Origin: an uncultured Acidobacteriota bacterium
GTDB lineage: Bacteria; Acidobacteriota; Vicinamibacteria; Fen-336
Assembly: GCA_902826455.1 (NCBI GenBank)
Contig: CADEEV010000023.1
Span: forward strand, 1-64,000
Reading direction: 5' to 3'
Length of the DNA stretch: 64,000 nt
Shown: positions 21,201-50,147 of the stretch, piece after piece
Numbering within the stretch: position 1 is the stretch's first letter
Layout: each line of letters starts with the position of its first letter
Position numbers and translations under genes: made by a program
Notes under the pieces: generated by a model
Told to the model about the DNA's origin: nothing
Databases searched by the model: none
What the model saw: only the letters and a program-made list of their open reading frames with translations

Positions 21201-24200
21201 CCCGTCTCCGGCCAGGACCCGGCCAGAGACGAAGCCGTCGTTGGGCGGCAGCGGCTCCAGCGCGCTGAGGAGGCTCTCGGGCACGGCAAAGTTGACGATT
21301 GCGGCCGCATCCTGCGGCGACAGGCCGATCAATGCTTCGGGCGGCAGGCTCTCGAGCCGCGTCACCGAAGCCAGGGCGCGGCTCCGATCGCCCTGCAGCG
21401 CGATGAAGTGCAGCACGGCAGCGCGCCCTCCGGGCTCCAGATGCAGGCCGTCGTACTGGTAGACCAGGCGGCCCGCGTTCATCTCGAGACGCGGGGCCAC
21501 GGACCCGCCTGTACCGGCAGCGATCCCGAGCGGCGGGCGGTGTGGAGCCTGGGCACTGCGCGCGTACCAGTCACCGTCCCGGTCGTCGAGAACGACGTAG
21601 CGGTCGGAAACATCGACGACCTCGTCTCCGGACGACGTCGAGACCGGCTCGATCGGTCCGCCGAGCTGCTCCGCGAGCCCGATGCCCTCCTGGATCGCGA
21701 GGGCGGCGGTCGTGACACCGACATTCGTGACGATGTCCAGGTATCGAACGAAGTAGCCGTCGGCGGGAACGTACACCCGTCGTTCCAGGCGCAGATCCCC
21801 CGTCTCTTGATGGAGCCTCAACTCACGCCGCTCGAGCGCCGAAGCCGCCATCGCTCCCGTTCCCGTGAACGGAAGCGCGATATCGCCCTGGTAGACGGTC
21901 CAGTGCGGTGCACCATCCCCGAACAGCCCCTCGTGCCCCGCGGCCGTGCCGTCCGGCCGGACTCGGAAGCGGAAGCCATTGGCGTCGTCGAGATCCAGGG
22001 GCACGGCGACGGCACTCGACAGCAGACCCAGGTCGACCACGAGCGTCTGTCCGTGGCGATCGAGCTGGCCCGGCGCCTCGGCCCGATCGCCGAGGCCGTC
22101 GTCGGCGGATACCCAGAACGCGCCGGTCGGTATCGCGTCGAAGCGATACCGACCCGAGGCGTCCGTCGTGGCCGTGAACGTTCCACCGACGTACGGCGAG
22201 GGATGCTGAAGGCGCACGACCTGGCTCGAAGCGGCACTGCCGCTGGCGTCGACGACGGAGCCACCGACCGCTCCGAGGCCGACCAGCACGATCTCCACGC
22301 CCACCCGATCGGGGGCCTCCACCGTCAGTCGGAAGCGGGCCACGCCACGGATCCGGTTCGCCACCGAGACGAGCGCGACCTGGTCGGTGTCGATCGGGAG
22401 GTTCGTGAGCTCGAAGACTCCGGCGTCGTCGCTGGCTGCCGACTGGACGCCGCTCGAGACGAGCGCTCCGGCCACGGGTGTCGTGCCATCCGGCCCAAGA
22501 ACTCGACCACTCACTCGTCCGGCGGGGCGCAGCTCGAGGCCGACGTCGAGCACGGCCCCGGGCGCCAACGTGCCCGTCGTACGGGCGCCGCTCGTCCGAA
22601 CCGGGTCGAAAGCGTCGATCGTCACGGCCCCGGCGAGGAGGTTGCCGAGGATCGCGACGCCGCCGGCATCCGTGTCGGCCTGACGCCTGTTTCCGGAGGT
22701 CGCGGTGACATGGACGCCGCTCGCACCCGAGCCGTCCGGGTTGCGGACCCGGACGAAGACCGAGCCCAGGCCCGTGAGGCGGGCCTCGACCCGGGTCGTC
22801 GCGTCCGCGGCGACGCTCCCGGCGATGCGAGCGCGATCGCCCTCGGGCGTATCCACGTCCAGGACGAACGCGCCGACCCTCACGGTCTCGAAAGCGAACG
22901 CACCCTCGGCGTCCGCATGGACGATGCGGGCGCTCCCCGGCAGCGATCCCACCACTCGGGCGCCGGCGTGGGGCGATCCGTCGAAGTTCATCACGGTGCC
23001 CGCGAGCCGGCCCGCCGCGGAAAGCGCCACGTCGAAGGTGACCGACGCGCCGTCGGGCGCCGTGGGCCCCGTGCCGCTGCCGGTCAGGCCGTCGGCGGGG
23101 TTCCGCACGTCGGCCGAGAGCTTCCCGGCGAGAACCTCCGGGAAGAAGGCCACGCCGAGGTCATCCGTGGTGCCATTGGTCAGGGAGGCGTCGCCGTAGG
23201 CCACTGACTGCGCGCGCAGGGAGACGCTCGCGCCGGACACGGACTGCCCGTGAGCGTCGCGGACTCGGACGCTCGCCGCCGCCAGTCCGTTCAGGCGGAC
23301 GTCGACCGACGTCGTCTGGCTTTCGACGACGTCCACCACGCCCCGTCCATAGTCGGGACTGCCCAAGTCGTCCGCTGCGAGCGTCGCGCGGCCGACAGGA
23401 ACGGCATCGAAACGGAAGCTTCCGTCGGGGCCGGTGGTCGCGATCTGCGTCGCCGCTCCGTTCAGGCGAACGCTCGAGGGGGGCGCCGGCGTCACGCCGT
23501 CGGCGCGAAGCACGCGCCCGGAGACCGCGCCGCTGCCGCGAAGCGTCACGTCCAGGATCAGGCACTCGCCGTCTCCGGCCAGGATGCCCTCGCCAGTACC
23601 GGCGAGGAACCCGTCGCCGAGGTTGGCTGCGGCCACCACGCGACCCTCGGGAACGCCGTCGACGACGTAGTGGCCCTGGCCGTCGGTGAGCGTCGCGACC
23701 CGGAAGGTTCCCGACGTGACGAGCACGCGGGCGGCGGCTCGCGGGGCTCCGTTCAGGACCACCGATCCCTGGACCGTGCCCAGACCCTGCGCGACGAGCC
23801 GAACCTCCAGGACCTGACCTTCCTCTTCGAGCGATCCCGCGAAGGACGCCGTCCGCGCCGAGAGGGGATCCTGGGCGGTGACCTCGAACGTTCCCGCCGG
23901 CACGAAGTCGAACGAAAACGCGCCGATGTCCCCGCTCGCCAGGGTCGCAACCTGGCCGAAGACGCGATCCGCCTGTCGCAGGGTCACGATGCCGTAAGGA
24001 ATGGGCTTCGTTCCGTCGCGCTCGAAGAAGTGGCCCCGGACCCGGCCCGTCGAGTTGAGCCGTACCTTGACTTCTTGCGTGGATCCCGGCGCGGCAAGGA
24101 CCGAGGACGCCCGCCCGCCACGGCCCTGCGCGTCGAAGGCCTCCGCGCTGAATGGCCCCTCGAAGACCCCCGGGAACGTCGCCACGCCGTCGTTCGAGAG

Positions 24201-27200
24201 GCTCAGCGCGGCCTCGTACCCGCGCAGCGGGAACTCGGATTCGGCGAGCTTCACGTAGGCGCTCGCGACTGGCCGGTCGAGGCCGTCGACGACGCGGACG
24301 CGCACCGCTCCCTTGCCCTTGAGGCGCAGGTCCTGGACGGCGTCCTGGCCCGCGCGGAGGAACACGCGCTCCTGCACCACGCCGCCCGTCACCGGATCGC
24401 GAGCCGTGAGGCGGTACGACCCCGCGGGCAGGATGCGTGCGAAGCGGAAGGCACCGCTCTCGTTCGTGCGTACGGTGACGTCGGGCAGCACGCCTCCGAC
24501 CGTGACCTCGACCCCGCTCCCCGCCGGCGTCGCGCCATCCGGCAGGAGGACTCGACCCGAGAGCTCTCCGGCCGTCGAATTGACCAGGCGAAGGGTGAAG
24601 GCCACTGCGCTCCCGGCCGTGAGCAGGTTGCCCTGGGCTCCGACGTCGGTCGGGAAGAAGGCCTGGTGCGCCGTGACGCCGATGGGGCCGACGTTGACGC
24701 GCGGTACCGCGAAGCGTCCCTGGACATCCGTGCGGATGCGGTGCGAAACGCCGAAGGCGAGCCCGCAGACGGAGCCGTCGTTCACGAATCGACTCGACCG
24801 GATCGCGACCTCGGCTCCCAGGGCGGGAGCGCCGTCCGGATCGAGGACGAGCCCCGTGACGACGCCCGTGCCCGCGAATTGCAGCACGGCGCGCCCGATC
24901 GCTCCGTCGGAGGAGATCGAAGCCGAGCCCCGGGCGGCATCGACGATCGTTCCGAGCTGCAGGGCCTGCGCGGTGGCCACACCGAGCGGCAGGCCTTCGA
25001 AGCGAACCCGCCCGTCGGGGCCCGTCTTCTTGAACTGGCAGCCGCACGCGTCGGCGCAGGCTCCGAGCAAGCCCACGTCGACGCCGGCGAGGATGCTTCC
25101 GTCCTTGCCGAGTACCGTGAACTCCGCGGTTCCGACCCCGGACAGCGCGATGTTCCGCGTCAGCGTCTGGGCGACGTTCATCACGAAGGAAGCGTCCCCC
25201 GAGCGGACGCCATCGCGCGCGCGCGCGACGACGTGCTGCACGATCCCCGAGCGGGCTTCGATGCCAGGAAGGACGTAGGAGCCGTCGGCGGCGGCAACGG
25301 TCGCACGGTCCCCAACGCTGACGATCGCCTCGGGCTCGGGCGCTCCGGAGGCCGTCGACACGCGTCCCGACAACGAGCCGTACTCGGATTCGGGCGGGAT
25401 CACGATCAGCAGATCACGCCCGATCAGCACGTCGCCCGCAGCGGCGACGCCGCTGAGCGAGGCGCGATCGCGCGTGTTGAGTGCCGTTTGCAGAGTGAAG
25501 GCGCCGGCCGGCATGCCCTCGAACGCGTACTGGCCGGTCGAGTCCGAGGTTGCGAGCCCCAGCAGGGTCGCGGCTTCGTACCAGCGCACCTGCGCTCCGG
25601 CCACCGGTGCGAGCTGCCCGGCGTCCAGCGTGCGCACGGTGCCCGACACGCGAACCGAACCGCTGCTCATCGTGACATCGACGCGCGCCAGCGTGCCGGC
25701 CCGATCGATGCGCCCCGTGGAGTAGCCGGCGAAGATTCCCTTCGAGACGCTGACGGTCACCTGCCCCACCGTGATCCCGTCGACGTGATACCTCCCGGCT
25801 CCGTCGGTTCGGGTGGCGCCGCCGCTCTGAGCATCGGCGACGCTCAGCACCACGACGTCCGCGCCAGGCACGGGCTTTCCCTGGAGGTCGCGCACGATGC
25901 CGGCGACGGATCCCCGGCCCAGCAAGACGAGGTCCAGGACGATCGCTTCGCCGGCGGTCCGGACGTACGACGAGGCACGGCGGAGCGCGCCGGTGGCCGG
26001 ATCCTGGGTGAGCACTCCGAAGGGTCGCCCGCAGGGGTCGCGTCGAACGTAGCGGAACTCGTAGGCTCCCTGGCTCGACACGTCGACTGCGGCCACGCCC
26101 TGGGGCGGCGCGCCGCCACACTCGACGTCCACGTTCGTCGCGTAGGTCACTCGCGCGTTCGTGACCGGGGAACCGTCGGCGTTCACGACCCGCCCGGAGA
26201 CGACGGCACCCGCATCCGTGAGACGCGAGGCCAGGGACACGGAGCGGCTGGGTCCGGAGGCGCCACGACCGTCGCGTATCCCGGCCACGGTCAGCTCGGT
26301 CGGCACGTAGGGCCCCTCGGGCTGAGCGAGCATGCCGAGCACGAGCCGCCCCGAGAGCTGCCGACGCGCGACGCGAACTTCGTTGTCGGGGATCGCGTAG
26401 TGCGTCACGTCGGCCGCGGACGTGGCCTCGACCGCGCGATCGAACAACAGGGCGAGGTGCTGGCCGAAGGGCCCGGAGCCGGCGAGGATCTCCGGGCCGA
26501 TCACGGTCGCCGAGACCAGGCGGGCGCCGTCGGACTCCAGCAGGCCCGTGCGGGGCACTTCGACCGGGTCGCCCGCGGGGCCGCGGCGCAGTTGGAGCCG
26601 CAGCGGGCGCGAGGCATCGAGCGTCAGTCGAGAGCCGCTGGCGAGGTCCGGCAGGTCGAAGCGGGCGAAACGGCCGTCGCCCATGGGGAGCGTGACGGAC
26701 ACGTCGAGCGATCCTTCGGGCGTGGCCAGCTCGAGGGTGTAGGGAGAAGCGGTGAGGTCTGTCACGAGCGCCAGGAGGCGACGGCCGTCCGGCGACAGCG
26801 GGACGATCGTGCTCGAGGCGATCGCGATCGGACCGTCCGTCGAGGAACGCCGACCGGCCGCGTCGACCAGGGTGAGAGCGACCGGCGATGCCGCATCGAC
26901 GCCGATCGCGAGGAGGTCCCGCGAGGCCGCAGCGCGCTCCGAGCTCTCGCGCTCGAAGCCCGTGGCCCCGCCGGAAGCGGGCATCGCCGCCTCGAGGACC
27001 CCACCTATGGCCTCTGAGAAGGCGCGGCCCGCCTCGGTCTCGCGAAGCAGCTGGTCGAAGCCGGGGTCGACGGGGGCCGGCCCGTGGAAGTCGAAGAGGA
27101 GGTCGCGCACGGAGTCGACGGCAGGCGCCCCGAGCTCGATCCGCAGGCCGGCCTCGGCCAGTGCGAGCACCTTCTCCGAAGCCCGAGCCTTGCTGACGCG

Positions 27201-36991: not shown

Positions 36992-38104
36992 ATGAAGAGA
37001 CTCGGCACGGTCCTCCCCCTGCTGCTCTTGCTGACGCCGGTCGTCCACGCCCAGGACCAGGATCAGGACCAGACGGTCTACCAGAAGCAGAAGGCCAGCT
37101 TCGGATTCCACGCCGACGCCCTCGTCCGCCAGGAATGGACCCAGGAGATCTTCATCTCCACGACCGACACGTCGAACCAGCAGCGTCGCCTGTTCCGCCT
37201 CAAGCCGCGCGTGGAGTTCGGCGGGGATCGGTTTTCCCTCGGTGTCGGCGGCGAGTTCAACTACGGCAGCGACAAGAACGTCGACCCCAAGCCCACCCTG
37301 CTGCGGGACAACTACGACTCGCGCGACGCCCGCCTCGACCTCGCCTTCGCGCGTGTAGAGCCGGCGCGCTGGCTGCGTCTCGACGGCGGGCGCTTCAAGA
37401 TGCCCGTGGCCTTCACGGAGATGATCTGGGACCGGGATCTGCGGCCCCAGGGCGCCGCCCTCACGCTGCAGAGCAAGGACGCGGAGGGCGTCGCGCGCTT
37501 CGGCCTGACCGGCCTGTGGTCCAAGGGCGGCCACGTCTTCGACGACGAGGCCGTCGAGCTCCTGCTGGGCTCCGCCCAGGCGACGTTCCCCGGGCAGGGC
37601 GACTCGAGCCTCCAGCTGGTCGGCTCGTTCCTCTACTGGAAGGACGCCTCGAGCCTCGAGCCCATGATCCGCCGCCAGAACACCCGCGTGCTCGGCGAGA
37701 TCACGGGCGACTACCGCGTCGTCGACCTCGTGGCGCGGGTCCGCACGGCGTCCCAGACGCCCCTGCAGCTCGTCGCGAACTACTGCTGGAACACCGCGAT
37801 CGACAGCTCGAACAAGGGCCTGTGGCTGGCCGCGGTGCTGGGCTCCATCGACACCTCGCGGGTGCGGCTCGAGTACACCTTCGCGAACGTGGACAAGGAC
37901 GCGACCCTGGCCGCGTACAGCACCGACGACTTCTTCTGGGCCACGGGCTGGCGCGGGCATCGCGGGGAGATCTCGTCGCGCACGAGCGACAAGTCGAGCA
38001 TCGCCGTCGTGGGCCAGCTGCAGCAGTTCAAGGACAGCCCGCGCCCCGAGGAGCGCGACCACTGGGTGAAGCGCATCCGCGTGGAGCTGCGCGCGAACTA
38101 CTAG
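36992..38104 (+). CDS. Putative porin (phosphate-selective-porin-like beta barrel)
   Basis: 370 residues. The signal peptide MKRLGTVLPLLLLLTPVVHA is followed by an acidic DQDQDQ segment and then repeated amphipathic strands (ASFGFHADALVRQEWTQE, RLDLAFARVEPARWLRLDGGRFKMPV). It ends in WVKRIRVELRANY, an aromatic C-terminus typical of outer-membrane barrels. A GAGGTG Shine-Dalgarno precedes ATG 36992. An extended -10 (TGA-TAGAAT, 36951-36959) lies in the gap after the GH172 gene, so it may also have its own promoter. It probably imports the GH172 products. Confidence 0.82.
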   Translation: MKRLGTVLPLLLLLTPVVHAQDQDQDQTVYQKQKASFGFHADALVRQEWTQEIFISTTDTSNQQRRLFRLKPRVEFGGDRFSLGVGGEFNYGSDKNVDPKPTLLRDNYDSRDARLDLAFARVEPARWLRLDGGRFKMPVAFTEMIWDRDLRPQGAALTLQSKDAEGVARFGLTGLWSKGGHVFDDEAVELLLGSAQATFPGQGDSSLQLVGSFLYWKDASSLEPMIRRQNTRVLGEITGDYRVVDLVARVRTASQTPLQLVANYCWNTAIDSSNKGLWLAAVLGSIDTSRVRLEYTFANVDKDATLAAYSTDDFFWATGWRGHRGEISSRTSDKSSIAVVGQLQQFKDSPRPEERDHWVKRIRVELRANY

Positions 38105-38107
38105 CCG

Positions 38108-39142
38108 TCAGTCGCCGCTGATGATGCCGCCGAGGCCGCCCAGGGCCTTGTTCAGGACGGAGCCTTCGTCGACACCACTGCCGCCCACGCGCGGCATCGC
38201 CCGCGAGATGCGGTCGGCGAGCCGCGACAGCGGCAGGGACTGGAGCCAGACCCGCCCGGGCCCGTGGACCGTGGCGAAGAAGATGCCCTCGCCGCCGAAC
38301 AACGCGGTCTTCACCTTGCCGACGAACTCGATCTCGTAGCGCACGGACGGCTGGAGCGCGACGAGACAGCCGGTGTCGACCCGCAGGTCTTCGCCGGGCT
38401 TGAGGTCGATCGTGTGGATCGTGCCGCCCGCATGGACGAAGCAGAGACCGTCGCCGGAGAGCCGCTGCATGATGAAGCCCTCGCCACCGAACAGGCCGAC
38501 GCCGATCTTCTTCTGGAAGGCGATGCCGATCGAGACGCCCCGGGCTGCGCAGAGGAAGGAGTCCTTCTGGCAGACCAGCTCGCCGCCCAGGGCCTTAAGG
38601 TCCATGGGCAGGATCTTGCCGGCGTAGGGCGCCGCGAAGGCGACACGCTGCTTGCCCTGGCCGCCGTTGGTGAACACGGTCATGAACAGGCTCTCGCCGG
38701 TGATCAGGCGCTTGCCGGCTCCGACCAGGGCGCCCCACACGCCCCCGGTGCTCGAGCCTTGCCCGCTGCCGTCGCCGAAGACCGTCTCCATCTGGATGCC
38801 GCGGGTCATGTACATCATCACGCCCGCCTCGGCCACGGCGCTCTCGCCCGGATCGAGCTCCACCTCGACGAACTGCATCTCGGCGCCGTAGATCTGGAAA
38901 TCGATCTCGTGGGCGGTGCGCAGGCCGCCGGGCATCGGCGGGGGCGCGGTGGTCGAGCTCTTGAGATGCTGGGCGAAGACCGCCACGCTCTTCAGCGGCT
39001 CCCAGCCCGACATCCCGGCGGTGAAGACGAGCGTGTCGCCCGACGCGCTGCCGTTCTTCAGGTTCGAGAGGATCTCGGCCTCGGTCACCGGACCGATCTG
39101 GTGGCCGCCGATCGCCAGGTACCACTGGGCTTCGTCAGGCAT
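38108..39142 (-). CDS. GYF_2-AIM24 domain protein (TIGR00266-like)
   Basis: 344 residues. An N-terminal GYF_2 domain (WYLAIGGHQIGPVTEAEILSNL, then TLVFTAGMSGWEPL) is joined by a Pro-rich linker to an AIM24/TIGR00266 beta domain (about 90-310). That domain has FQIYGAEMQFVEVELDPGESAVAEAGVMMYM, repeated LFGGEGF/LFGGEGI turns and VHAGGTIHTIDLKPGED. A C-terminal Gly/Leu tail (NKALGGLGGIISGD) follows. AIM24 proteins are linked to membrane organisation; the biochemical role is not known. It is last in the nine-gene operon, five bases after the TerB-like gene. Confidence 0.88.
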   Translation of the reverse strand: MPDEAQWYLAIGGHQIGPVTEAEILSNLKNGSASGDTLVFTAGMSGWEPLKSVAVFAQHLKSSTTAPPPMPGGLRTAHEIDFQIYGAEMQFVEVELDPGESAVAEAGVMMYMTRGIQMETVFGDGSGQGSSTGGVWGALVGAGKRLITGESLFMTVFTNGGQGKQRVAFAAPYAGKILPMDLKALGGELVCQKDSFLCAARGVSIGIAFQKKIGVGLFGGEGFIMQRLSGDGLCFVHAGGTIHTIDLKPGEDLRVDTGCLVALQPSVRYEIEFVGKVKTALFGGEGIFFATVHGPGRVWLQSLPLSRLADRISRAMPRVGGSGVDEGSVLNKALGGLGGIISGD

Positions 39143-39147
39143 GCGCG

Positions 39148-39744
39148 TCAATCCTCCTTGTCGATGTTGGCAGCCGCGTCGGTCTCGAGGCGCGCGGCCG
39201 TCGCGGCGTCGAGCCCGAGCCGGTGGGCGAGCTGGGCCAGGTAGATGCGCTCCGCGCCGCTGACCGTCTCGTCGGCCCGCAGCAGCGTGAACGCCATCGT
39301 GTAGAGCTCGGCCTTCTGGGCGGGATCGGCGACACCCGCCACGATCTCCGCCAGGGGCCGCGGATCGTCGAGCTCCGCCCGGACCAGCGCCTCGGCCGCC
39401 GGACCGCCCGCGCTGGCCAGCCGGGCGATGTTCTGGCCTTCGGCCGGCGCGAGGTCGCCGTCGGCGCGGGCCGCCGAGATCAGCAAGCGGATCGCCCGGG
39501 CGACCTCCACGGGCACTCCGGCCACGGCGGGCGCCTCGGGAGCCGTGCGGGGTGCGGCCGACGGCGTCGCCTTGTTCTGGGACGACTCGTAGAGCCCCCA
39601 CGCCACCGCCGCAGCGCCGGCGATCGCGCGCAGCCCGAGGTGCGAGCCGCCGAGACCGAAGGCGCTCGCGGCGCGACGATGGCGCTTGCCGCGGCCGGCG
39701 AGAGCGCCGCGAAGCAGGGAGCCGAGCAGGTCCTCGGGGTTCAC
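39148..39744 (-). CDS. DUF533/TerB-like protein
   Basis: 198 residues from GTG 39744, overlapping the upstream stop (GTGA). There is a basic N-terminus, one hydrophobic helix (HLGLRAIAGAAAVAWGLYES) and a Ser/Ala/Pro linker. A helical TerB-like domain (about 85-195) follows: RAIRLLISAARADGDLAPAEGQNIARL, YTMAFTLLRADETVSGAERIYLAQLAHRLGLD. The repeated acidic residues fit metal-binding TerB folds. Like YebE-type DUF533 proteins, it is probably peripheral to the inner membrane. Its operon partners are AIM24 and ABC-2 exporters. Confidence 0.8.
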   Translation of the reverse strand: MNPEDLLGSLLRGALAGRGKRHRRAASAFGLGGSHLGLRAIAGAAAVAWGLYESSQNKATPSAAPRTAPEAPAVAGVPVEVARAIRLLISAARADGDLAPAEGQNIARLASAGGPAAEALVRAELDDPRPLAEIVAGVADPAQKAELYTMAFTLLRADETVSGAERIYLAQLAHRLGLDAATAARLETDAAANIDKED

Positions 39745-40730
39745 TGGGCCCTCGGCGTCGCGGTCGGGACCGCCGGCTTCGGCGCGAGCGCGGCCAGCGT
39801 CTCGGGCGACACCCGGAAGTCGATCACGACCTGGCTCGCCTTCTGGGTAATGGTGAAGGCCGTGGCGAGCTCCTTGAGCTCGGGCTTGGCCCCCGCCTGC
39901 AGGGCGAGCAGCGACGTGAGCCCACGCGCCGTGTCGGCCAGGTTCTTGGCACCGGCCGCGTCGGCGGCGTCGCCGGTCGCCGAGATCGTGACGAGGGGTT
40001 CCAGGTCCCCGGAAACGGACAGGCTCTTGAGGTTCGGCATCGAGAAGTTCGAGCCCAGGCCGCCGCTCGAACCTCCCGTGGGCAGGTTGGAGAGCAGGGT
40101 GCCGTCTCCGACGAGCCAGAACGTCGCGTCGGTCCGGGCGCGATCGAGGAGCCCGCCCAGGAGAACGTTCGTCCGCAGCGTGGCCTTGTGCTGGCCATGA
40201 GCCTCCAGCATCGCCCGAACGCCGGCGGCGTCGCCCGTCAGGAGCGTGCCCTGGTCGACGAACGCGATGCCCTGAGGCTGCGCGGCGTTCTTGCCCGCGA
40301 ACGAATAGAAGTCGAGGTCGCCGACCTTCTCCGCCTTGGCGCCGGCCTTGAGCGCCGCGGCCGCGCGGAGCTTGTAGACGTCGAACGCGCCGAGCACCAC
40401 GGCGACGCTCGTGCCGCCCCGGAGGCCCGCCACGAAGACACGGTCGACGTCGCGCTCGGGATTGAGGCCCGTCTCTTCCTCGAGGTGCCGGAACGCGTCC
40501 GGCCGCGCGAGGTTCCGGGCCGCGACCTGCTTCTGGTAGAACGCGCTGGCCGCGAGGCGCTTCACGTCGAAGCCGCCGACGAACGTGGCGTCGGCCGGGA
40601 AGGCCTGCGTGACCGCCGGCAAGCGGCTCGTGAGGGTCGCCGCCGGAGCCGCGAGGCCACTGAGGGCGACGCCGATGCCCAGGACGACCAGACCGACCGA
40701 CACCGACGCCAGCACGCCGTTGCGCGACAT
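39741..40730 (-). CDS. Hypothetical exported protein of the ABC operon
   Basis: 329 residues with a signal anchor (about 5-33, VLASVSVGLVVLGIGVALSGLA). The extracytoplasmic domain alternates ADATFVGGFDVKRLAAS, DVDRVFVAGLRGGTSVAVVLGAFD and ATFWLVGDGTLLSNLPTGGSSGG-type segments. The pattern resembles DUF3352-like exported proteins that tile beta-alpha units, but I do not recognise the family with confidence. No catalytic motif is evident. It follows the second permease by 27 bases and overlaps the TerB-like gene by four. Confidence 0.75.
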   Translation of the reverse strand: MSRNGVLASVSVGLVVLGIGVALSGLAAPAATLTSRLPAVTQAFPADATFVGGFDVKRLAASAFYQKQVAARNLARPDAFRHLEEETGLNPERDVDRVFVAGLRGGTSVAVVLGAFDVYKLRAAAALKAGAKAEKVGDLDFYSFAGKNAAQPQGIAFVDQGTLLTGDAAGVRAMLEAHGQHKATLRTNVLLGGLLDRARTDATFWLVGDGTLLSNLPTGGSSGGLGSNFSMPNLKSLSVSGDLEPLVTISATGDAADAAGAKNLADTARGLTSLLALQAGAKPELKELATAFTITQKASQVVIDFRVSPETLAALAPKPAVPTATPRAQ

Positions 40731-40757
40731 GGATGCCCCCCGGTTTCGAGTGTAGCG

Positions 40758-41567
40758 CTACTGGTCCAGTACGTACTCGCGCTCGGAAAAGATCCGAACG
40801 GCGAGGGCCAGGAACGCACCGGCGAGGAGCGACAGCACGACCAGGCTGAGGCCTGCCGGCTGGGTCTGGGCGAAGATCTGCGCGAGGCCTTCCTCGGCGG
40901 GATGGTGCGTGACGAGCGACCGCAGCCAGGCCGTGATCGTGAGGCGCGGCAGGTAGCCGGGCAGGTTCGCCACGAGCTCCCACACGAACAGGAAGAGCAG
41001 GCCGGGGATCATGGGGCGCCTCAGCGTCACGCCGGCGAGAGCGAAGAACGCGCCGTAAGCCACGAGACCCATGGCGAGCGCGCCGAGGTCGCGCACGAGG
41101 TCGAGACCGTGAGCGGTCGCTCCGGAGAGCCCGGCCGCCGTGGTCAGCAGGAAATACGTGACGACGGTCGCGGGCAGCACGAGGCAGAGCGTCGTCGCGA
41201 GATAGGCCGCGAACTTTCCCAGCAGCACGGAGCTGCGCCGGATCGGGCGCGTGAACAGATAGGTGATCGTCCGCTCCTCCACCTCGTCGGTCACGAGGGC
41301 CGTGCCGTAGAACAGCGCGGCCAGGGGCACGACGTTGCGGATGTAGTAGAGCGCCACGACGGTGCCGTAGAGGTCGAAGCCCGAGAGCCGCGTCGGGAGC
41401 TTGGCGACGAGCACCACCCGGTACAGCACGCCGAAGACGACGGGGAGGCAGAGCAGGACTCCCATGAGCAGGCTGCGACGGCTCCAGAACAGGCGCTCGA
41501 AGGAGAGCGCGAAGACGGCGCGAGCGCCGTCCAGCGTCGGCAGGGTCCGGCCCGTGTCGCGGCTCAT
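40758..41567 (-). CDS. ABC-2 type transporter permease (second pair)
   Basis: 269 residues with about six membrane helices. After the first helix (LLMGVLLCLPVVFGVLYRVVL) comes the ABC-2 signature TDEVEERTITYLFTRPIRRSSVLLGKF. The last helix is LSLVVLSLLAGAFLALAV. ATG 41567 overlaps the ATPase stop by four bases, making it the cognate permease. ABC-2 systems export drugs, lipids, glycans or peptides, or act as regulators; the substrate is unknown. Confidence 0.88.
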   Translation of the reverse strand: MSRDTGRTLPTLDGARAVFALSFERLFWSRRSLLMGVLLCLPVVFGVLYRVVLVAKLPTRLSGFDLYGTVVALYYIRNVVPLAALFYGTALVTDEVEERTITYLFTRPIRRSSVLLGKFAAYLATTLCLVLPATVVTYFLLTTAAGLSGATAHGLDLVRDLGALAMGLVAYGAFFALAGVTLRRPMIPGLLFLFVWELVANLPGYLPRLTITAWLRSLVTHHPAEEGLAQIFAQTQPAGLSLVVLSLLAGAFLALAVRIFSEREYVLDQ

Positions 41568-42487
41568 CGCGCCACCAGGTACCGGAAGACCGACTCCAGG
41601 TTCTCGTCGGGGGAATACATCTCGGTGATGCCGGCCTCGACGGCGACGGCCTGCAGCGCGCCATAGAACTCGTCGGGCCGTGCCGTCTGGATCGTCACCC
41701 ACTCCCCTTCCGCCCCGAAGCTCAGGGAGACGACGCTCGCGAGGCCCACGACCTGGCGCGCCAGGGAGCGCGGGTCGGCGGCGCGAATCGCGACCGTGTG
41801 GGGATGCTCGTCCATCAGGTCGCGGATCTCGCGCACGTCGCCCTCGGCGAGGACGCGGCCGTTGTGGATCAGGAGCACGCGCCGCGTCATGGCCTCGACC
41901 TCGTGGAGGATGTGGCTCGACACCACGACGGTCTTGCCCTCCCGCCCGAGCTTCTTCACGAGGTCCACGACGCGCCGGCGGTTCACCGGATCCATGCCGC
42001 TCACCGGCTCGTCGAGCAGCAGCACCTCGGGGTCGTGGGCAATGGCCTGGGCCAGCTTCACGCGCTGGCGCATGCCCTTGCTGTAGCCGCCGATCTTGCG
42101 ATCCTTGGCGGCGAGCAGGTCGACCTGCGCGAGGGCGCTCTCGGCGCGCGTGCGGCACTCGGCCGCGTCAAAGCCCGACAGCCGCAGCAGCGAGGCGACG
42201 AACTGCTGCCCCGTCATCGCTTCCCAGAACGCGTCGGGCTCCGGGCAAAGGCCGACGCGATGGAAGACCTCGGGCGAGCCCCAGGCCGGCCTGCCGAGCA
42301 GCTTGACCTCTCCCTGGTTGGGGGCGATCTGGCCCGCCGCCAGCTTGAGGAACGTGGACTTCCCCGCCCCGTTCGGCCCGAGCAGGCCCGTGACGCCCGG
42401 ACCGACCGTCGTCGTGACGTCGTTCAGGGCGATGACGGGTCCGTACCAGCGCGACGCGCGCACGAACTCGAGGCTCGCGGCGCTCAC
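41564..42487 (-). CDS. ABC transporter ATP-binding protein (second pair)
   Basis: 307 residues from GTG 42487. Visible motifs are Walker A GLLGPNGAGKSTFLKLAAG, the Q-loop region near VGLCPEPDAFWEAMTG, signature YSKGMRQRVKLAQAIAHD, Walker B EVLLLDEPVSGMDP and H-loop SSHILHEVEAM. About 90 residues follow the NBD (AIRAADPRSLARQVVGLASV), the usual extension of ABC-2 ATPases. GTGA overlap with the permease upstream and overlap with the permease downstream make the four ABC genes one continuous unit. Confidence 0.93.
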   Translation of the reverse strand: MSAASLEFVRASRWYGPVIALNDVTTTVGPGVTGLLGPNGAGKSTFLKLAAGQIAPNQGEVKLLGRPAWGSPEVFHRVGLCPEPDAFWEAMTGQQFVASLLRLSGFDAAECRTRAESALAQVDLLAAKDRKIGGYSKGMRQRVKLAQAIAHDPEVLLLDEPVSGMDPVNRRRVVDLVKKLGREGKTVVVSSHILHEVEAMTRRVLLIHNGRVLAEGDVREIRDLMDEHPHTVAIRAADPRSLARQVVGLASVVSLSFGAEGEWVTIQTARPDEFYGALQAVAVEAGITEMYSPDENLESVFRYLVAR

Positions 42488-43329
42488 CTGACGATCTCCA
42501 CCGCCCGCACCCGCGCGCGCAGGATCGCGAGGCAGCCGGCCGCGGTCAGGACGAGCACGGCGATCGGGTAGATCGCCGGCACCGCGCCGCCGGTCTCGGC
42601 GACGCCGAACAGGAGGTTGCCGATGATCCGCAGGTCGTTCTGGAGCGAGAGCACCCGGGCCTCGGGCCGGTCGAGGATGCCCTCGAGCACGCCGCGCACG
42701 ATCTCGAGGCCGACGATCACGCCGGCGAACGCCAGGCCCGCCACGCGGGCGCTGCGCGACAGCGCCGAGATCGCGAGGGCCACCAGGCTCACGACCAGGG
42801 ACAGGATCGTGGCGTGGAGCACGATCATCGGGGCGATCCACGCGAGCTCCCATTTGAGGAAGAGCTCGGGGGCGAGGCCGAGCGACACCGCGTAGAGGAG
42901 CAGCGCCGGCAGCAGCGTCGCGGAGTAGTTGAGCGCCATCAGCACCGACAGCTTGCCGAGGACGTAGTCGCGTCGGGTCAGCGGCCGCGACAGGTAGACG
43001 AGTATCGCTCCGGTGCGCAGGTCGTTCGCGATCAGCCCGGCGCCGCCGAAGATCGAGAGCAGCAGCGTGAGCCCGGTCTGCTGGTTGAGGAAGTCGCCGA
43101 ACAGGCGGCCGTCCACGGGCAGCACGCGTCCCGCTTCCGGGAAGCGCGTCACGATGTAGACCTGGATCAGGCGCACGACGAACGGGATCCAGACCAGGAC
43201 CAGGAGGCCGATGAACGCGCGCTTGGCGAGGACCAGGGACAACGCCTCGCGGGTGATCGGCCAGAACCGCACCGCCCGGAGCGGACCGCGCGCCTCCCAG
43301 CGCCGGTAGGCCTGCTCGTAAATCGGCAC
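42484..43329 (-). CDS. ABC-2 type transporter permease (first pair)
   Basis: 281 residues. The GTG start at 43329 shares bases with the upstream TAG stop (TAGTG). It has about six membrane helices with the ABC-2 motif LIANDLRTGAILVYLSRPLTRRDYVLGKL. The C-terminal helix (YPIAVLVLTAAGCLAILRARV) ends in a basic tail. Pairing is with the ATPase immediately upstream. Confidence 0.88.
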   Translation of the reverse strand: MPIYEQAYRRWEARGPLRAVRFWPITREALSLVLAKRAFIGLLVLVWIPFVVRLIQVYIVTRFPEAGRVLPVDGRLFGDFLNQQTGLTLLLSIFGGAGLIANDLRTGAILVYLSRPLTRRDYVLGKLSVLMALNYSATLLPALLLYAVSLGLAPELFLKWELAWIAPMIVLHATILSLVVSLVALAISALSRSARVAGLAFAGVIVGLEIVRGVLEGILDRPEARVLSLQNDLRIIGNLLFGVAETGGAVPAIYPIAVLVLTAAGCLAILRARVRAVEIVR

Positions 43330-44255
43330 TACGCCTGCACCTCGTGGCCGAGGGCTCGGAGGAACACGTCCTCCAGGCTCTCGGCGGCCGGCCGCAGGTG
43401 GCGGATCTGCACGCCGCACTCCCGGGCCGTGCGGAACAGCAGCTCTGGCCCGGCGTCGGGCCCGAGGAACACCCGCAGGCCGTCCTCGCCCTCGCGCCAG
43501 TCGCAGCCGGCGTCCTTGAGGTCGGTCAGGAACGCGCTCGCCTCGCCGCGCAGCCGCACGTCGAAGGCGACGCGGCGGGCGCTGGTCAAGCTCGCGATCG
43601 GACCGCTGGCGGCGACCTTGCCCTGGTTGAACACGAGCACCGTGTCGCAGACGCGCTCGACGTCTCGCAGCAGGTGGGAGCACAGGACCAGGCTGATGCC
43701 GCGGCGCGTCGCGATGTCGCCGATGAGGTCCAGCATCTCGTCGCGGCCCGCCGGGTCGAGGCCGTTCGTGGGCTCGTCGAGGAGGAGCAGGTCCGGGTCG
43801 TGGACGAGGGCCTGGGCCAGCTTCACCCGCTGCTTCATGCCGGTCGAGTACTGGTCCACCGTGCGGTAGCGCGCCTCGCCGAGGCCGACGTAGTAGAGGA
43901 CCTCGTGGGAACGGCTGATGGCCTCGTCGCGCGGCATTCCCGACAGCTCCCCGGCGAACGCGACGAACGCGCTCGCGGTCATGCCGCCGATGTGACAGTC
44001 GACCTCGGGCATGTAGCCGATGCGCCGGCGCACCTCGAGGGGCACGACGCCGGGGTCGAGGCCGAAGGCCCTGAGCGAGCCGGAGTCGGGCCTCAGGAAG
44101 CCCAGGAGCGTCTTGAGCAGCGTCGTCTTGCCGGCGCCGTTGGGGCCCAGAAGGCCGGTCGCTCCGGGCAGGAAGGCTCCCGAGACGCCGCCCAGGGCCT
44201 GGAGCGGCCCGTACGACACCGCCAGTTCCCGGAACTCGACCAGTGGCGTCCCCAT
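43329..44255 (-). CDS. ABC transporter ATP-binding protein (first pair)
   Basis: About 308 residues from MGTPLVEFRELAVSYGPLQ. Visible motifs are Walker A GLLGPNGAGKTTLLKTLLG, signature YSTGMKQRVKLAQALVHD, Walker B DLLLLDEPTNGLDP and H-loop CSHLLRDVERVCD, with a C-terminal ~90-residue extension. ATG 44255 is chosen because it precedes the NBD directly. A GTG at 44297 (VSGTSTPAAAFPSEMG) would cut the gap after the preceding gene to about 20 bases and is possible; neither has a clear Shine-Dalgarno. Confidence 0.92.
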   Translation of the reverse strand: MGTPLVEFRELAVSYGPLQALGGVSGAFLPGATGLLGPNGAGKTTLLKTLLGFLRPDSGSLRAFGLDPGVVPLEVRRRIGYMPEVDCHIGGMTASAFVAFAGELSGMPRDEAISRSHEVLYYVGLGEARYRTVDQYSTGMKQRVKLAQALVHDPDLLLLDEPTNGLDPAGRDEMLDLIGDIATRRGISLVLCSHLLRDVERVCDTVLVFNQGKVAASGPIASLTSARRVAFDVRLRGEASAFLTDLKDAGCDWREGEDGLRVFLGPDAGPELLFRTARECGVQIRHLRPAAESLEDVFLRALGHEVQA

Positions 44256-44316
44256 CTCGGAGGGAAACGCGGCAGCCGGTGTCGAAGTTCCGCTCACTGC
44301 GCGAGGAGCGCCGGTC

Positions 44317-44829
44317 TCAGGAACGGCCGGAGGTCCCGGGACGCACCATGGCCTCGCGGACGAGCCGAGGCAGGTGCGCGAGAGGACCACGCGGCCGGCG
44401 CGCGTCGAGGGGGATGTAGTAGCGCCCGCTCGCGACCATCAGGTTCGACCACGGCGGCAGGCGACCGAGGTCCTCGCTGCGGATCTCGACTCGGACGAAG
44501 GCCATGCCCGGGGCGTAGTCGACCGCGGCGCGCTCGCCCAGGGCCTGCAGCAGGGCGGTCAGGATCACCGCGGGGCCTTCCTGCTCTCCCGCCAGGGCGA
44601 GGAGCACGTCGACGCCGTCGCGGCACTCGCCCTCGTTCGCCGGCGGGCAGGAGACGAGGTGGTTGACGAAGGTGAAGGCCGCCGCGACGCGCGCCATCCG
44701 GTCCCGCGCTCCGTAGCCCGCGACCAGGGCGCGGGCGAACTCGACGACGTCCGGATGCCGTGCGAGAGAGATGGAGAGTGAGTGGATCGCCCGGCGCGGG
44801 GCTTCCGAGGCTCGCGAGGAGCCGTTCAG
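44317..44829 (-). CDS. Transglutaminase-like domain protein lacking the catalytic Cys, probable CTG start
   Basis: About 170 residues. The core GVDVLLALAGEQEGPAVILTALLQALGERAAV aligns with the transglutaminase-like pattern (GxCxDxAxLLxALLRALG), but the Cys position reads as Glu/Gly. The later His-containing strand is not obvious either, so this looks like an inactive fold used for binding. CTG 44829 overlaps the TGA of the small upstream gene (CTGA) and is the best coupled start. Other in-frame starts lie inside the upstream gene in another frame. It sits just upstream of two ABC-2 pairs; similar proteins are often encoded with ABC or DUF58/MoxR clusters. Confidence 0.68.
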   Translation of the reverse strand: MNGSSRASEAPRRAIHSLSISLARHPDVVEFARALVAGYGARDRMARVAAAFTFVNHLVSCPPANEGECRDGVDVLLALAGEQEGPAVILTALLQALGERAAVDYAPGMAFVRVEIRSEDLGRLPPWSNLMVASGRYYIPLDARRPRGPLAHLPRLVREAMVRPGTSGRS

Positions 44830-44978
44830 GCCGGTTCCTCGGCGAGGCCTTCGAAGCCTTCGATCGGAATGGCCGTCTCGCCGTCCTTCAGGCACTGAGC
44901 GTAGGCGACGACCATGAGCAGCTGCTCCTCGCTCAGGTGGGCCAGCACATCGGTGGCCTGTTGCCGCAATTCGTCCAT
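44826..44978 (-). CDS. Small 50-residue acidic protein, first gene of the ABC operon
   Basis: MDELRQQATDVLAHLSEEQL begins a helical, acidic protein of 50 residues ending GFEGLAEEPA. The second half of the helix (MVVAYAQCLKDGE) is hydrophobic enough for dimerisation. The pattern loosely resembles DUF2281/VapB-type small proteins (LSEEQLLEVVDYAEFL), but no toxin is next to it. An AGG-containing weak Shine-Dalgarno lies at about 44984-44990. It overlaps the next gene by CTGA. Two NrdR-box-like sites flank its -35 (44999-45051). Confidence 0.65.
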   Translation of the reverse strand: MDELRQQATDVLAHLSEEQLLMVVAYAQCLKDGETAIPIEGFEGLAEEPA

Positions 44979-44998
44979 GCAGGGGCCTCGCTTTGGGC

Positions 44999-45051
44999 AG
45001 GATCCGCCATATCTTGCGTTCCTGTCAAGAAAAAAGCGCTACAGGCTGTGT
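44999..45051 (-). promoter_or_regulatory. ABC-operon promoter flanked by two NrdR-box-like sites
   Basis: Minus-strand promoter: TTGACA (45028-45023), 18-base spacer, GATCCT (45004-44999). A 16-base site CCGCCATATCTTGCGT (plus strand 45004-45019) matches the NrdR consensus acaCwAtATaTwGtgt at most conserved positions and covers the spacer and -10. A weaker site (45036-45051, GCGCTACAGGCTGTGT) lies 32 bp away, upstream of the -35. The rest of the 320-base gap (45052-45298) shows only the possible small gene at 45144. Confidence 0.5.
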
Positions 45052-45143
45052 GAGTTACCCGTTGTGCGATCGCGCACGAGGGATCCGGACGGTGGAACTC
45101 CGGGCCCCCGCGCTGCGTCTAGTGGGGGGTGCGAGGAGGAGCC

Positions 45144-45341
45144 GTGCAGAGCCGCAGAGCCGCCACCATCCCTGTCCCCCAGCCGGTGCCGCAGCGCCAG
45201 GAGACGCCGGAGACCCGCCACATCGTGCCCCGGTCGGTGACTTCGAGCAGCTGGATCGGACGGCTCGCCGCAGCGTGGCGGCGAGAGTTCGCGCCTACTC
45301 AGTATCCCCAGGAACGCTCGGGGGCCTCGCTGCGCAAGTAG
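45144..45341 (+). CDS. Possible small basic protein (65 residues)
   Basis: GTG at 45144 follows a very good GAGGAGGAG Shine-Dalgarno (45132-45140) by three to four bases. It encodes VQSRRAATIPVPQPVPQRQE and so on, ending RSGASLRK; basic and Pro-rich with no recognised domain. The last 43 bases overlap the convergent gene 45299-45754. It would be read divergently from the ABC operon, from the region holding the NrdR-like boxes. Evidence is only the ribosome-binding site and open frame. Confidence 0.3.
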   Translation: MQSRRAATIPVPQPVPQRQETPETRHIVPRSVTSSSWIGRLAAAWRREFAPTQYPQERSGASLRK

Positions 45342-45754
45342 GCCGCGACCCAGGCGATCACCCGCTCGCAGCTCTCGAGCCGGTTCGCCGGCGTCCCGGA
45401 GCTGACGGCCGACAGCAGATCCCGCGGCGCCGCCAGCCGTGCGAGGGCACGCTCGGCGTCGCCCTCGAACCGCATCCCGGCCTGCTCGAGAGCGGCCCGG
45501 CTCGCGGAGTCGATCGCGGCCCGGCAGGCCGTGTCGATGAGGGCTTCGGGCCGACGGTCCTGGACGAGCAGGCGCGCGATCCCGAGGGCATTCCGGGCGT
45601 GATCCCAGTACTGGTCGCGGACTGGAGCCGCCGGCACCGCCTCGCGAGATCCCAGGCCGCCGATGCTGCGAGGGAGCGTTGCCCCTCCCGGGCGCAGCCC
45701 GCTCCCGTCGGCCCCGAGCGGGGCCTGCTCCGTCTTCGCCGCTATGGACGACAC
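45299..45754 (-). CDS. Hypothetical helical protein coupled to nrdJ
   Basis: 151 residues from GTG 45754, one base after the nrdJ stop codon region (coupled). After a 45-residue loose N-terminus come helices YWDHARNALGIARLLVQDRRPEALIDTACRAAIDSASRAALEQAG, resembling HEPN-like small helical bundles. The C-terminal helix is RLESCERVIAWVAAYLRSEAPE. No catalytic RxxxxH of HEPN nucleases is visible. Its tight linkage to the reductase suggests an accessory or regulatory role, which is inference. Confidence 0.7.
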   Translation of the reverse strand: MSSIAAKTEQAPLGADGSGLRPGGATLPRSIGGLGSREAVPAAPVRDQYWDHARNALGIARLLVQDRRPEALIDTACRAAIDSASRAALEQAGMRFEGDAERALARLAAPRDLLSAVSSGTPANRLESCERVIAWVAAYLRSEAPERSWGY

Positions 45755-45755
45755 C

Positions 45756-48515
<2,760 letters not shown>

Positions 48516-48615
48516 AGGGACGCGTCCTCCTTCTCGTTGTCTCGTCTACAAGCCCTAAACCGTTCGCTTTTGCCCTTGGGAGCGCAGGGAGCGGAGTCAG
48601 CCGGAATGTTTCGCG

Positions 48616-48699
48616 ATTGTCGACCCCGCCGGCGCGACCTGTCAAGGAAAAAACGCAAGATATTGTGGTGCACCCTTGAGTGGCAACAATATCTTGCTG
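48616..48699 (-). promoter_or_regulatory. nrdJ promoter region with two NrdR boxes
   Basis: Two 16-base sites at 48653-48668 (ACGCAAGATATTGTGG) and 48684-48699 (CAACAATATCTTGCTG) match the NrdR consensus on either strand; spacing is 31 bp, about three helical turns. Their cores form a perfect 12-bp inverted repeat (GCAAGATATTGT / ACAATATCTTGC). Downstream on the minus strand are TTGACA (48645-48640), 18 bases, GACAAT (48621-48616). An alternative promoter TTGCCA-N18-TATCTT overlaps the boxes themselves. The remainder of the 345-base gap (48700-48860) shows nothing I can assign. Confidence 0.72.
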
Positions 48700-48860
48700 G
48701 ACAATGAGTTATGGGAAGCGCTCTGAGGAACCGCGCGAGACTTCGCCTCGGAAATGTCGCTTCGGAGGCGCCACAACGTCACCCTGGGCGTCGCCGGACT
48801 TCTGCTGGGGTGAAAGGGAAATAGATGCGTGAAGCTCAGCAGTGATCTTGCGATCGACTT

Positions 48861-49409
48861 CTAACTATCGATGGATTCGCGATAATCATGACTTTCGGCT
48901 GGCACCTCGGCCGTGTAGTTTTCGCGCTTATACGGGCGAAATCCGCGCTTCTCGTAGTTGGGGAGCGCGGCCGGATGGTCGAACGTGCAGGTGTGGAGCC
49001 AGACGCGCGTGGGCTCGCCCGCCCACGCGGTCTCGATCGCGACGGTGAGCAGGTGCGCGCCCAATCGACGTCCATGGAAGTCCGCGAAGAGGCCGAAGTA
49101 GGCGACCTCGGTCGAGCCATCGGCGTGACGCATGAGCTCGAAGTAGCCGGCCGGAGCCCCGCCGCAATACAGGACGTAGAGTTGCTGCCCCCGCTGCTCG
49201 ACGTGGGCTCGGATCTGCGCGTCGCTCCAGCCGATGCGATCCACCCAGTGATGGGCGGCGCCGACGCCGCCGTAGAGGAATCGGTAGAACGCGGGCGGGC
49301 ACTCGGCGACGAGGTCCACCCGGAGCCCTTCGGCCTCGCTGCGTGCCGGGCGCAGCTCGGCGGCACTCCGCATCTCCAAGTAGGTTCGTTCGGCGGTCAC
49401 GAGGGCCAT
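48861..49409 (-). CDS. GNAT-family N-acetyltransferase
   Basis: 182 residues. The GNAT core is visible: LYVLYCGGAPAGYFEL (strands 2-3), TEVAYFGLFADFHGRRLGAHLLTVAIETAW (strand 4 and acetyl-CoA loop, a Q/RxxGxG/A variant HGRRLGAH), VWLHTCTFDHPAALPNYEKRGFRP (C-terminal signature). The substrate is unknown. ATG 49409 lies nine bases below a TAGAAT -10 with no Shine-Dalgarno, suggesting a nearly leaderless mRNA. Divergent from the TetR gene. Confidence 0.9.
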   Translation of the reverse strand: MALVTAERTYLEMRSAAELRPARSEAEGLRVDLVAECPPAFYRFLYGGVGAAHHWVDRIGWSDAQIRAHVEQRGQQLYVLYCGGAPAGYFELMRHADGSTEVAYFGLFADFHGRRLGAHLLTVAIETAWAGEPTRVWLHTCTFDHPAALPNYEKRGFRPYKRENYTAEVPAESHDYRESIDS

Positions 49410-49418
49410 GGCAGTGTG

Positions 49419-49460
49419 ATTCTAACGGTTGACACGAGTCGTTCGCGCGCGGAATAGTAC
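49419..49460. promoter_or_regulatory. Overlapping divergent promoters of GNAT and TetR genes
   Basis: Minus strand: TAGAAT at 49424-49419, nine bases before the GNAT ATG. Plus strand: TTGACA at 49429-49434 with AT-rich GAATAGTAC at 49452-49460 as the candidate -10, about 30 bases before the TetR ATG. The two promoters overlap, so TetR binding here could control both genes. Confidence 0.5.
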
Positions 49461-49490
49461 GGCGCTTCACCCGAGCCAAAGAGGATCGAC

Positions 49491-50147
49491 ATGGCGCACG
49501 CGGCGCGCAAGAGCGCCCAGAAGGAAGACGCGCGGAACCAGAAGCGGCGCATCCTCGAGATCGCCGCCCGCGTGATCTGCGAGAAGGGCTACGAGGGCGC
49601 CGCGGTCCAGGACATCGCCGCCGCGGCCGGCCTCACGAAGGCGGGGCTCTACCATCACATCGAGAGCAAGGAGCAGCTGCTCTTCGAGATCCAGAACTAC
49701 GGGATGGACGTCTTCGAGGAGCAGGTGCTCTTCCAGGTCCTCAACATCCCGGATCCGCTGGAGCGTCTCAAGGCCTGCATGGAGAAGAACGTCCTGCTCG
49801 TCACCCGCGGCTGGAGCAAGGAGATCACGATCATCCTGCACGAGCACGCGACGCTGACGGGCGACGCGCGCTCCCAGATCAACGCGCGCAAGAAGCGCTA
49901 CGTGCGCTTCCTCGAGAGCTCGTTCTCGGAGGCGCTGCGGCGGGGCCAGATCCGCAACGTGAACCCCAAGGTCGCGGCCTTCGCGTTCCTCGGGATGGTG
50001 CTCTGGATCTACAAGTGGTACCGGCCGGACGGGCCCATCTCGGCCGAGCAGATCGCCGCCGACATGCAGGACCTGCTGTTCACGGGCCTGGCGCCGGCCG
50101 CCGCTACCGTCGCGGCCGCACCTCGCAGGACCAAACGGAAGGGCTAG
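49491..50147 (+). CDS. TetR-family transcriptional regulator
   Basis: 218 residues. The N-terminal HTH runs about 17-66: RILEIAARVICEKGYEGAAVQDIAAAAGLTKAGLYHHIESKEQLLFEI, the classical TetR pattern. The ligand domain contains WSKEITIILHEHATLTG and VRFLESSFSEALRRGQIR, similar to regulators of fatty-acid or steroid catabolism (KstR2/FadR-like), followed by a basic tail. AGAGGA Shine-Dalgarno-like bases lie upstream. It converges on the GcvT-like gene with a 4-base gap and is divergent from GNAT. Confidence 0.92.
   Translation: MAHAARKSAQKEDARNQKRRILEIAARVICEKGYEGAAVQDIAAAAGLTKAGLYHHIESKEQLLFEIQNYGMDVFEEQVLFQVLNIPDPLERLKACMEKNVLLVTRGWSKEITIILHEHATLTGDARSQINARKKRYVRFLESSFSEALRRGQIRNVNPKVAAFAFLGMVLWIYKWYRPDGPISAEQIAADMQDLLFTGLAPAAATVAAAPRRTKRKG

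Follow-up and report, generated by a model that had tools for sequence, protein, structure and literature searches.

A pair of NrdR-type boxes lies at a minus-strand promoter at positions 44999-45051 of the window, by which we mean the whole 64-kb stretch of DNA analysed here. The two boxes, at 45004-45019 and 45036-45051, probably form an NrdR operator, predicted to be bound by this repressor and to control a unit made of a small ORF and the gene behind it (gene 2), with transcription read on into ABC exporter genes. In this lineage NrdR most likely controls more than ribonucleotide reductase (RNR), and the wider regulon, with smc in first place, is a more important lead than the small-ORF promoter. 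In its fullest form, which we regard as evenly balanced, the proposal is that NrdR of the Vicinamibacteria serves replication-linked functions as a dNTP-sensing repressor of nrdJ, nrdA, smc (by boxes retained in much of the class), an outer-membrane barrel gene and an nrdJ-neighbour unit, the latter with a captured ABC-2 operon in one lineage.

The promoter comprises the following elements:

45036-45051, minus strand: weak partner box ACACAGCCTGTAGCGC, just 5' of the T-run and the -35
45023-45028, minus strand: -35 element TTGACA, with a T6 run (45030-45035) before it
45004-45019, minus strand: strong NrdR-type box ACGCAAGATATGGCGG, which takes up most of the -35/-10 spacer
44999-45004, minus strand: probable -10 GATCCT after an 18-bp spacer, a weak match assigned by position only

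Read toward lower coordinates, the order on the minus strand is weak box, T6, TTGACA, strong box and GATCCT, followed by the ATG (44978) of a 50-aa ORF. The boxes are 32 bp apart from centre to centre, which leaves a 16-bp spacer. Conserved G-C pairs are described for the NrdR box in the excerpts of PMC9110341, and both boxes keep C4 and G13, the numbers 4 and 13 being our own mapping onto these published pairs. The pair flanks the -35 and fills the spacer, and therefore overlaps the polymerase binding site, the -10 itself being a weak match. A sigma-70 scan of 43900-45800 gave no site above thresholds on either strand and thus misses the promoter at 44999-45051 too, and an Rfam search of 38000-49500 returned no match.

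The gene for the B12-dependent RNR sits just upstream of this promoter and points in the same direction. Its features and the ORF behind it are:

48684-48699, minus strand: nrdJ distal NrdR box, 13.9 bits, 31 bp from the proximal box
48653-48668, minus strand: nrdJ proximal NrdR box, 23.5 bits by a matrix that excludes the own genome
45756-48515, minus strand: nrdJ, B12-dependent class II ribonucleotide reductase (NCBIfam NF005122, 1448 bits)
45299-45754, minus strand: small protein directly 3' of nrdJ, true start probably further in, 44-58% identical to an ORF behind nrdJ in five relatives

The last of these falls into no Pfam or NCBIfam family. The original prediction held that the site at 45004-45019 is nearly the nrdJ box sequence and covers the spacer and -10, that a weaker partner lies 32 bp away, and that the promoter core is shared with nrdJ. 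All three statements agree with what we find. Compared with the nrdJ proximal box in reverse orientation (ACGCAAGATATTGTGG, plus strand, 48653-48668), the strong box has 2 mismatches in 16 positions; the partner lies at 45036-45051; and an ungapped comparison of the stretch of weak box, T-run and TTGACAGG with the promoter of nrdJ gives 23 identities in 30 positions.

Sites were scored with a matrix of nrdJ proximal boxes from 12 other genomes, the own genome being left out. With this nrdJ-derived matrix, the kind of scan originally suggested, the strong box reaches 16.7 bits and ranks second in the window, behind nrdJ, and four sites as good were counted in a simulated 5.26 Mb, the size of the source genome (108 contigs). 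Once the distal boxes were added to the matrix, its rank in the window became third and 54 sites as good occurred in the simulated sequence. Dinucleotide shuffles of the 201-bp promoter region reached the strong-box score in 6 of 20,000 cases, and a partner equal to or better than the weak box (7.0 bits) appeared at one of the eight permitted offsets in 35 of 20,000. Single sites of at least 7 bits, the level of the weak partner, are common in 400 kb of own-genome background (83 sites). The same background contained no site of at least 16.67 bits; across the 20 spacings from 24 to 43, no pair came up to 23.68, and two were at or above the nrdA level of 15.09. Among pairs spaced 31-32 bp, taken from the window plus three more loci of the genome, the best scores are 37.4 at nrdJ, 23.7 at the promoter 44999-45051 and 15.1 at nrdA, followed by 1.9. 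An Infernal covariance model without GC correction was less favourable, with an E-value of just 1.2 for the strong box when the window was searched. Covariance model R1 was dropped for ranking sites genome-wide because its E-values ignore the 70% GC, and the matrix and a consensus pattern were used instead. The pattern occurs at 14 places in the genome, many of them inside genes, against 29 for its reversed control. Thus pattern matches alone prove nothing, and they were kept as a candidate list.

NrdR itself is encoded in the source genome (one match, 77.9 bits) and was found in 56 of the 60 class genomes, those without a match being G010, G007, G013 and G036. The G010 assembly (94% complete, 630 contigs) carries boxes yet has no NrdR match, and its genus-mate G003 has two; the missing NrdR in G010 is probably an assembly gap.

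The original reading of nine genes downstream of the promoter fits the ORFs, which are:

44826-44978, minus strand: gene 1, 50-aa protein, first under the candidate operator; homologues translated in G003, G010, G009 and G014-G016, with an alignment of five
44317-44829, minus strand: gene 2, transglutaminase-like protein of about 170 aa, start codon uncertain; 51-58% identity in five family genomes
43329-44255, minus strand: gene 3, ABC ATPase (Pfam ABC_tran)
42484-43332, minus strand: gene 4, ABC-2 permease, start approximate (Pfam ABC2_membrane_2)
41564-42487, minus strand: gene 5, ABC ATPase (Pfam ABC_tran)
40758-41567, minus strand: gene 6, ABC-2 permease (Pfam ABC2_membrane_2), with matches in 15 of 17 genomes searched
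39741-40730, minus strand: gene 7, probable exported protein, from ORF and GC3, no Pfam match
39148-39744, minus strand: gene 8, DUF533/TerB-like (Pfam DUF533, 5e-23, on the ORF containing gene 8; TerB 23.3 bits, just below cut-off)
38108-39142, minus strand: gene 9, GYF_2 and AIM24 protein (Pfam AIM24, 1e-72)

Genes 2 to 9 follow one another closely, no gap exceeding about 60 bp; from the end of gene 2 to the ABC ATPase the distance is 61 bp. Neither the 50-aa protein nor gene 2 belongs to a Pfam or NCBIfam family above cut-off. Gene 2 had been called a pseudo-transglutaminase, a name with weak support: no Pfam family passes, and the Foldseek matches of the structure model (pLDDT 77) are weak, all with E of at least 0.066. 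They include the transglutaminase-like proteins 3kd4, 3isr and menin, and the fold appears transglutaminase-like only weakly. At the start of gene 2 (window 44815-44895) no clear ATG, GTG or TTG follows the small-ORF stop, and a CTG overlaps this stop (GGCCTGAAC), with the same letters in G003 and G010. A CTG start with translational coupling is possible.

Gene order in relatives places the head of this operon next to nrdJ. Gene 2 is present in 6 of the 14 family genomes, each time on the nrdJ contig, with further matches near E 1e-3 in two genomes of other families (G037, G041). It comes after nrdJ and the small-protein gene, without a promoter-sized gap, in G002 and G004. The small ORF and gene 2 of G009 trail nrdJ and the next ORF, also without a promoter-sized gap, the nrdJ junction itself not being seen because the 215 bases right 3' of nrdJ read N. 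The small ORF of the sister family (G014-G016) lies 56, 65 and 83 nt behind nrdJ; a hairpin and a T-rich stretch (by eye) follow it, and then the ABC genes. This hairpin, between small ORF and ABC ATPase, reads CCCCAAGG-loop-CCTTGGGG (L058, L059, L060). A small-ORF peptide motif, built from known copies so that a miss is no proof of absence, gave no match at ten loci from seven genomes (the surroundings of nrdJ and of the ABC genes in G005, G006, G011, G012 and G013; the vicinity of gene 2 in G002 and G004). Overall, gene order in relatives indicates that nrdJ is accompanied by the small ORF, by gene 2 or by both, and not by the ABC exporters.

A separate small-ORF promoter was found in two other genomes, G003 and G010. 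Both carry TTGACA with CAAGATGTAGCG in the spacer (19.9 and 15.5 bits), and both also have TTTTCCTTGACA at the -35 region. The strong box is thus present at the same promoter position in 2 of 2 cases, with its core kept in the alignment and much of the flank not, and the scan proposed originally finds it there as well. As G003 and G010 belong to the same genus, a separate promoter with a box is seen in just two lineages. The upstream partner is absent in both, where +31 offers no more than a very weak candidate (-2.5 and -1.4 bits) and 40-43 bp gave nothing. The partner box is therefore seen in the source genome only, and the pair as such appears not to be conserved: in these orthologous promoters the strong box recurs (2 of 2, one genus) and the upstream partner does not (0 of 2).

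These data bear on whether the operator reaches the ABC genes at all. A real operator might control the small ORF and gene 2 only, with the ABC and AIM24 genes using their own promoter inside gene 2 or the 61-bp gap, an arrangement that we consider unlikely and that is the best of the alternatives. It would fit G003, where a large ORF and an ORF on the opposite strand (esterase-like by eye) stand between the small-ORF/gene-2 unit and the ABC genes. It would also fit G006 and G011, where a large ORF (a membrane protein by eye) stands between nrdJ and the ABC genes and the latter begin beside a divergent ORF (DinB-like by eye). Among the 30 ABC heads scored (of 43 matches, source genome included), the other 29 have no box above 9.5 bits within up to 1500 nt upstream, so that a box as a general property of the ABC genes was rejected. 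The gap before the ABC ATPase (GAGCGGAACTTCG) still resembles part of the leader in some relatives. On the other hand, genes 2 to 9 are tightly packed and no promoter-like site was detected within 43900-45800, but the scan is the one that also misses the promoter under study. The ABC genes seem to be joined to the small-ORF/gene-2 unit here by adjacency, and may have been captured by the NrdR promoter in the source genome.

The original claim of NrdR control over an ABC-exporter operon thus divides. Its operator part is favoured by motif, spacing and orthologues; its target is not, the nrdJ companion being the small ORF and/or gene 2, to which the ABC genes seem attached by adjacency. As a whole that interpretation is partly supported, and an NrdR interpretation with the target corrected to an nrdJ-neighbour unit leading into the ABC genes is likely.

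The second question is whether such a site can hold NrdR. The promoter may have been copied from nrdJ, the site being a relic or non-binding imitation in which one good box without a proper partner cannot hold the protein. This we find improbable. The 23/30 match to the nrdJ promoter core and the weak partner would agree with it, as would the need of Escherichia coli NrdR for two boxes for strong binding, DNA with one intact box being bound 530-1000 times less well according to the excerpts of PMC12051234. However, relative to the -35 the strong box is placed opposite to the box of nrdJ, which puts it outside the copied segment; the core of the strong box is retained in another genus, unlike much of the sequence around it; and nrdA has a weaker pair in a like layout.

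NCBIfam assigns this nrdA, the second RNR gene of the genome (C19, truncated where the contig ends), to the class I alpha subunits, and a cobalamin riboswitch precedes it. In its promoter (L101:2476-2522) two boxes 31 bp apart, CCCCAATGAATTGTAT extending into the -35 and CTACCAGATATAGATA covering the spacer and -10, are arranged so that, as at 44999-45051, one box stands against the -35 and one over the spacer/-10. It differs in that the upstream box is the stronger one, in its weaker boxes (10.5 and 4.6 bits against 16.7 and 7.0; pair sums 15.1 against 23.7) and in the cobalamin riboswitch downstream of the promoter. Box pair and riboswitch together (L101:2476-2733) suggest that B12 and dATP could both control nrdA. 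At nrdJ, all 13 family promoters read have a box just 5' of a T-run and TTGAC, with another one 31 or 32 bp upstream of it, a spacing partly imposed by seeking the distal box only at 30-33 bp. Sixteen nrdJ promoters were given, and three from the sister family were left out of the 13 because the CTTGAC landmark is absent; a different scan of these three loci detected a box of 22.6 bits and a second of 5.8-7.1 bits at 31 bp.

The reading as an NrdR operator is well supported by the motif, the distance of 32 bp between the boxes, the presence of the strong box in two orthologous promoters, a pair score above that of nrdA and the position of the head genes behind nrdJ elsewhere. Against it stand the weak partner, the poor -10 and the ABC genes without a box elsewhere. 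According to the excerpts of PMC12051234 and PMC9110341, published NrdRs act as tetramers loaded with ATP and dATP and bind most tightly to box pairs with 14-17 or 24-27 bp between the boxes. The RNR operators treated in these excerpts (Streptomyces coelicolor nrdRJ and nrdAB, E. coli nrdHIEF; PMC9110341, PMC12051234) likewise consist of two 16-bp palindromes, set about three helix turns from centre to centre and close to or covering the polymerase site. The promoter 44999-45051 is unlike them in having one weak box and in what lies downstream, namely the small ORF, gene 2 and ABC genes and no RNR.

From the observed sequence elements, spacing, conservation and synteny we infer binding, repression, read-through into the ABC genes and a history, as follows. 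Following the published mechanism (PMC12051234, PMC9110341), when dATP is plentiful an ATP/dATP-loaded NrdR tetramer would grip the two boxes about three helix turns apart, straddling the -35 and filling the spacer to the -10. We propose that RNA polymerase then cannot bind, NrdR being over the -35 and spacer. As dNTPs are consumed, NrdR would be released and the small-ORF/gene-2 transcript made together with that of nrdJ. Across gaps of about 60 bp or less, transcription would read through into the two ABC-2 exporter pairs and the DUF533/TerB-like and AIM24 genes. As to ancestry, the unit probably descends from an nrdJ-operon arrangement: the small ORF, with gene 2, may once have been part of the nrdJ operon, a box being needless where this place was kept, and the unit with its own promoter would have kept an NrdR box.

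Boxes were also found at genes of other kinds, above all smc. In the source genome an NrdR-type box lies 5 nt before the smc start codon (C58:10845-10858), one of the 14 pattern places. Within two families, where the smc match is missing in 3 of 17 genomes, a box of 9.7-22.2 bits closely precedes the start of all 14 smc genes. The class-wide set comprises 30 loci of 48 genomes with a match, and a box of at least 9 bits was found in 26 of these 30 promoters and of at least 13 bits in 20; shuffled smc upstream regions gave 310 and 55 of 9000, respectively. The counts are not independent because the genomes are related. Four loci stay below 9 bits (G036, G056, G033, G055), and G053 and G039 reach only 9.4, far upstream and without a partner. 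The best partner within 28-45 bp lies at 31 or 32 bp in 17 of 26 promoters, the chance share being 4 of 36 offsets, and the mean partner score over 17-60 bp peaks at 31 and then 32. Nine of these 17 partners reach a score of at least 4, and the other 8 stay below 2. By eye, the pair lies upstream of the -10 in family f10 and downstream of or over it in families f1 and f2, which argues that it is not a ribosome-binding-site artefact.

The outer-membrane barrel gene (C56:15725; OMP_b-brl below cut-off) has a near-perfect box in the source genome (C56:15679-15692, 24.0 bits) with no real partner (-5.1). Its relatives score 10-16 bits in G002, G003, G005 and G010 and 5.9-7.2 in G006, G007, G011 and G013, with no box in G009 and G012. 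In 5 of 11 genomes (G002, G005, G007, G011, G013) the best partner is 31 bp away. The case for this gene is weaker than that for smc.

A different regulator with a similar palindrome would have to bind the promoter 44999-45051, smc and the outer-membrane gene, which we judge very improbable. The boxes of the outer-membrane gene in relatives do have a different centre, CCACAAAGTATTGTGG, and three sister-family smc promoters have a strong box with no partner at 31-32 bp, but the smc partner spacing peaks at 31-32 bp as at nrdJ, a spacing preferred by published NrdRs. Least probable of all is chance resemblance: about four such single sites are expected per genome and the box was picked from 64 kb, but equal pairs number zero in 400 kb and the box recurs at the same place in orthologous promoters.

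With NrdR as the regulator, a lineage with boxes, often paired, before non-RNR genes, above all smc, would contrast with a repressor that is called RNR-specific in the excerpts of recent papers (PMC12051234, PMC9110341). If NrdR binds the smc boxes, chromosome compaction would be coupled directly to the level of dATP. A non-RNR target with reporter evidence is reported in the excerpt of PMC4409342, namely topA of Pseudomonas aeruginosa, and that of PMC12051234 doubts it, partly for its single box. Like the promoter studied here, topA has an NrdR-type box before a non-RNR gene; there, a single box is present and NrdR seems to activate (excerpt of PMC4409342), whereas the pair at 44999-45051 is in a repressing position. 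Among the NrdR papers listed, a set with subscription papers mostly outside it, none describes these targets as judged by titles and the first lines of abstracts.

Several further sites and ORFs were recorded. Two boxes, at C11:13628 and C11:16280, were dropped as they lie inside the apparent first codons of two similar genes. The window itself also holds a minus-strand ORF of 4590 aa (15171-28943) with GC3 of coding type. Finally, an NrdR-type box of 19.5 bits (C5:148745-148758) lies just before a Ser/Pro-rich lipoprotein-like gene, after a promoter-like stretch with TTGACG.
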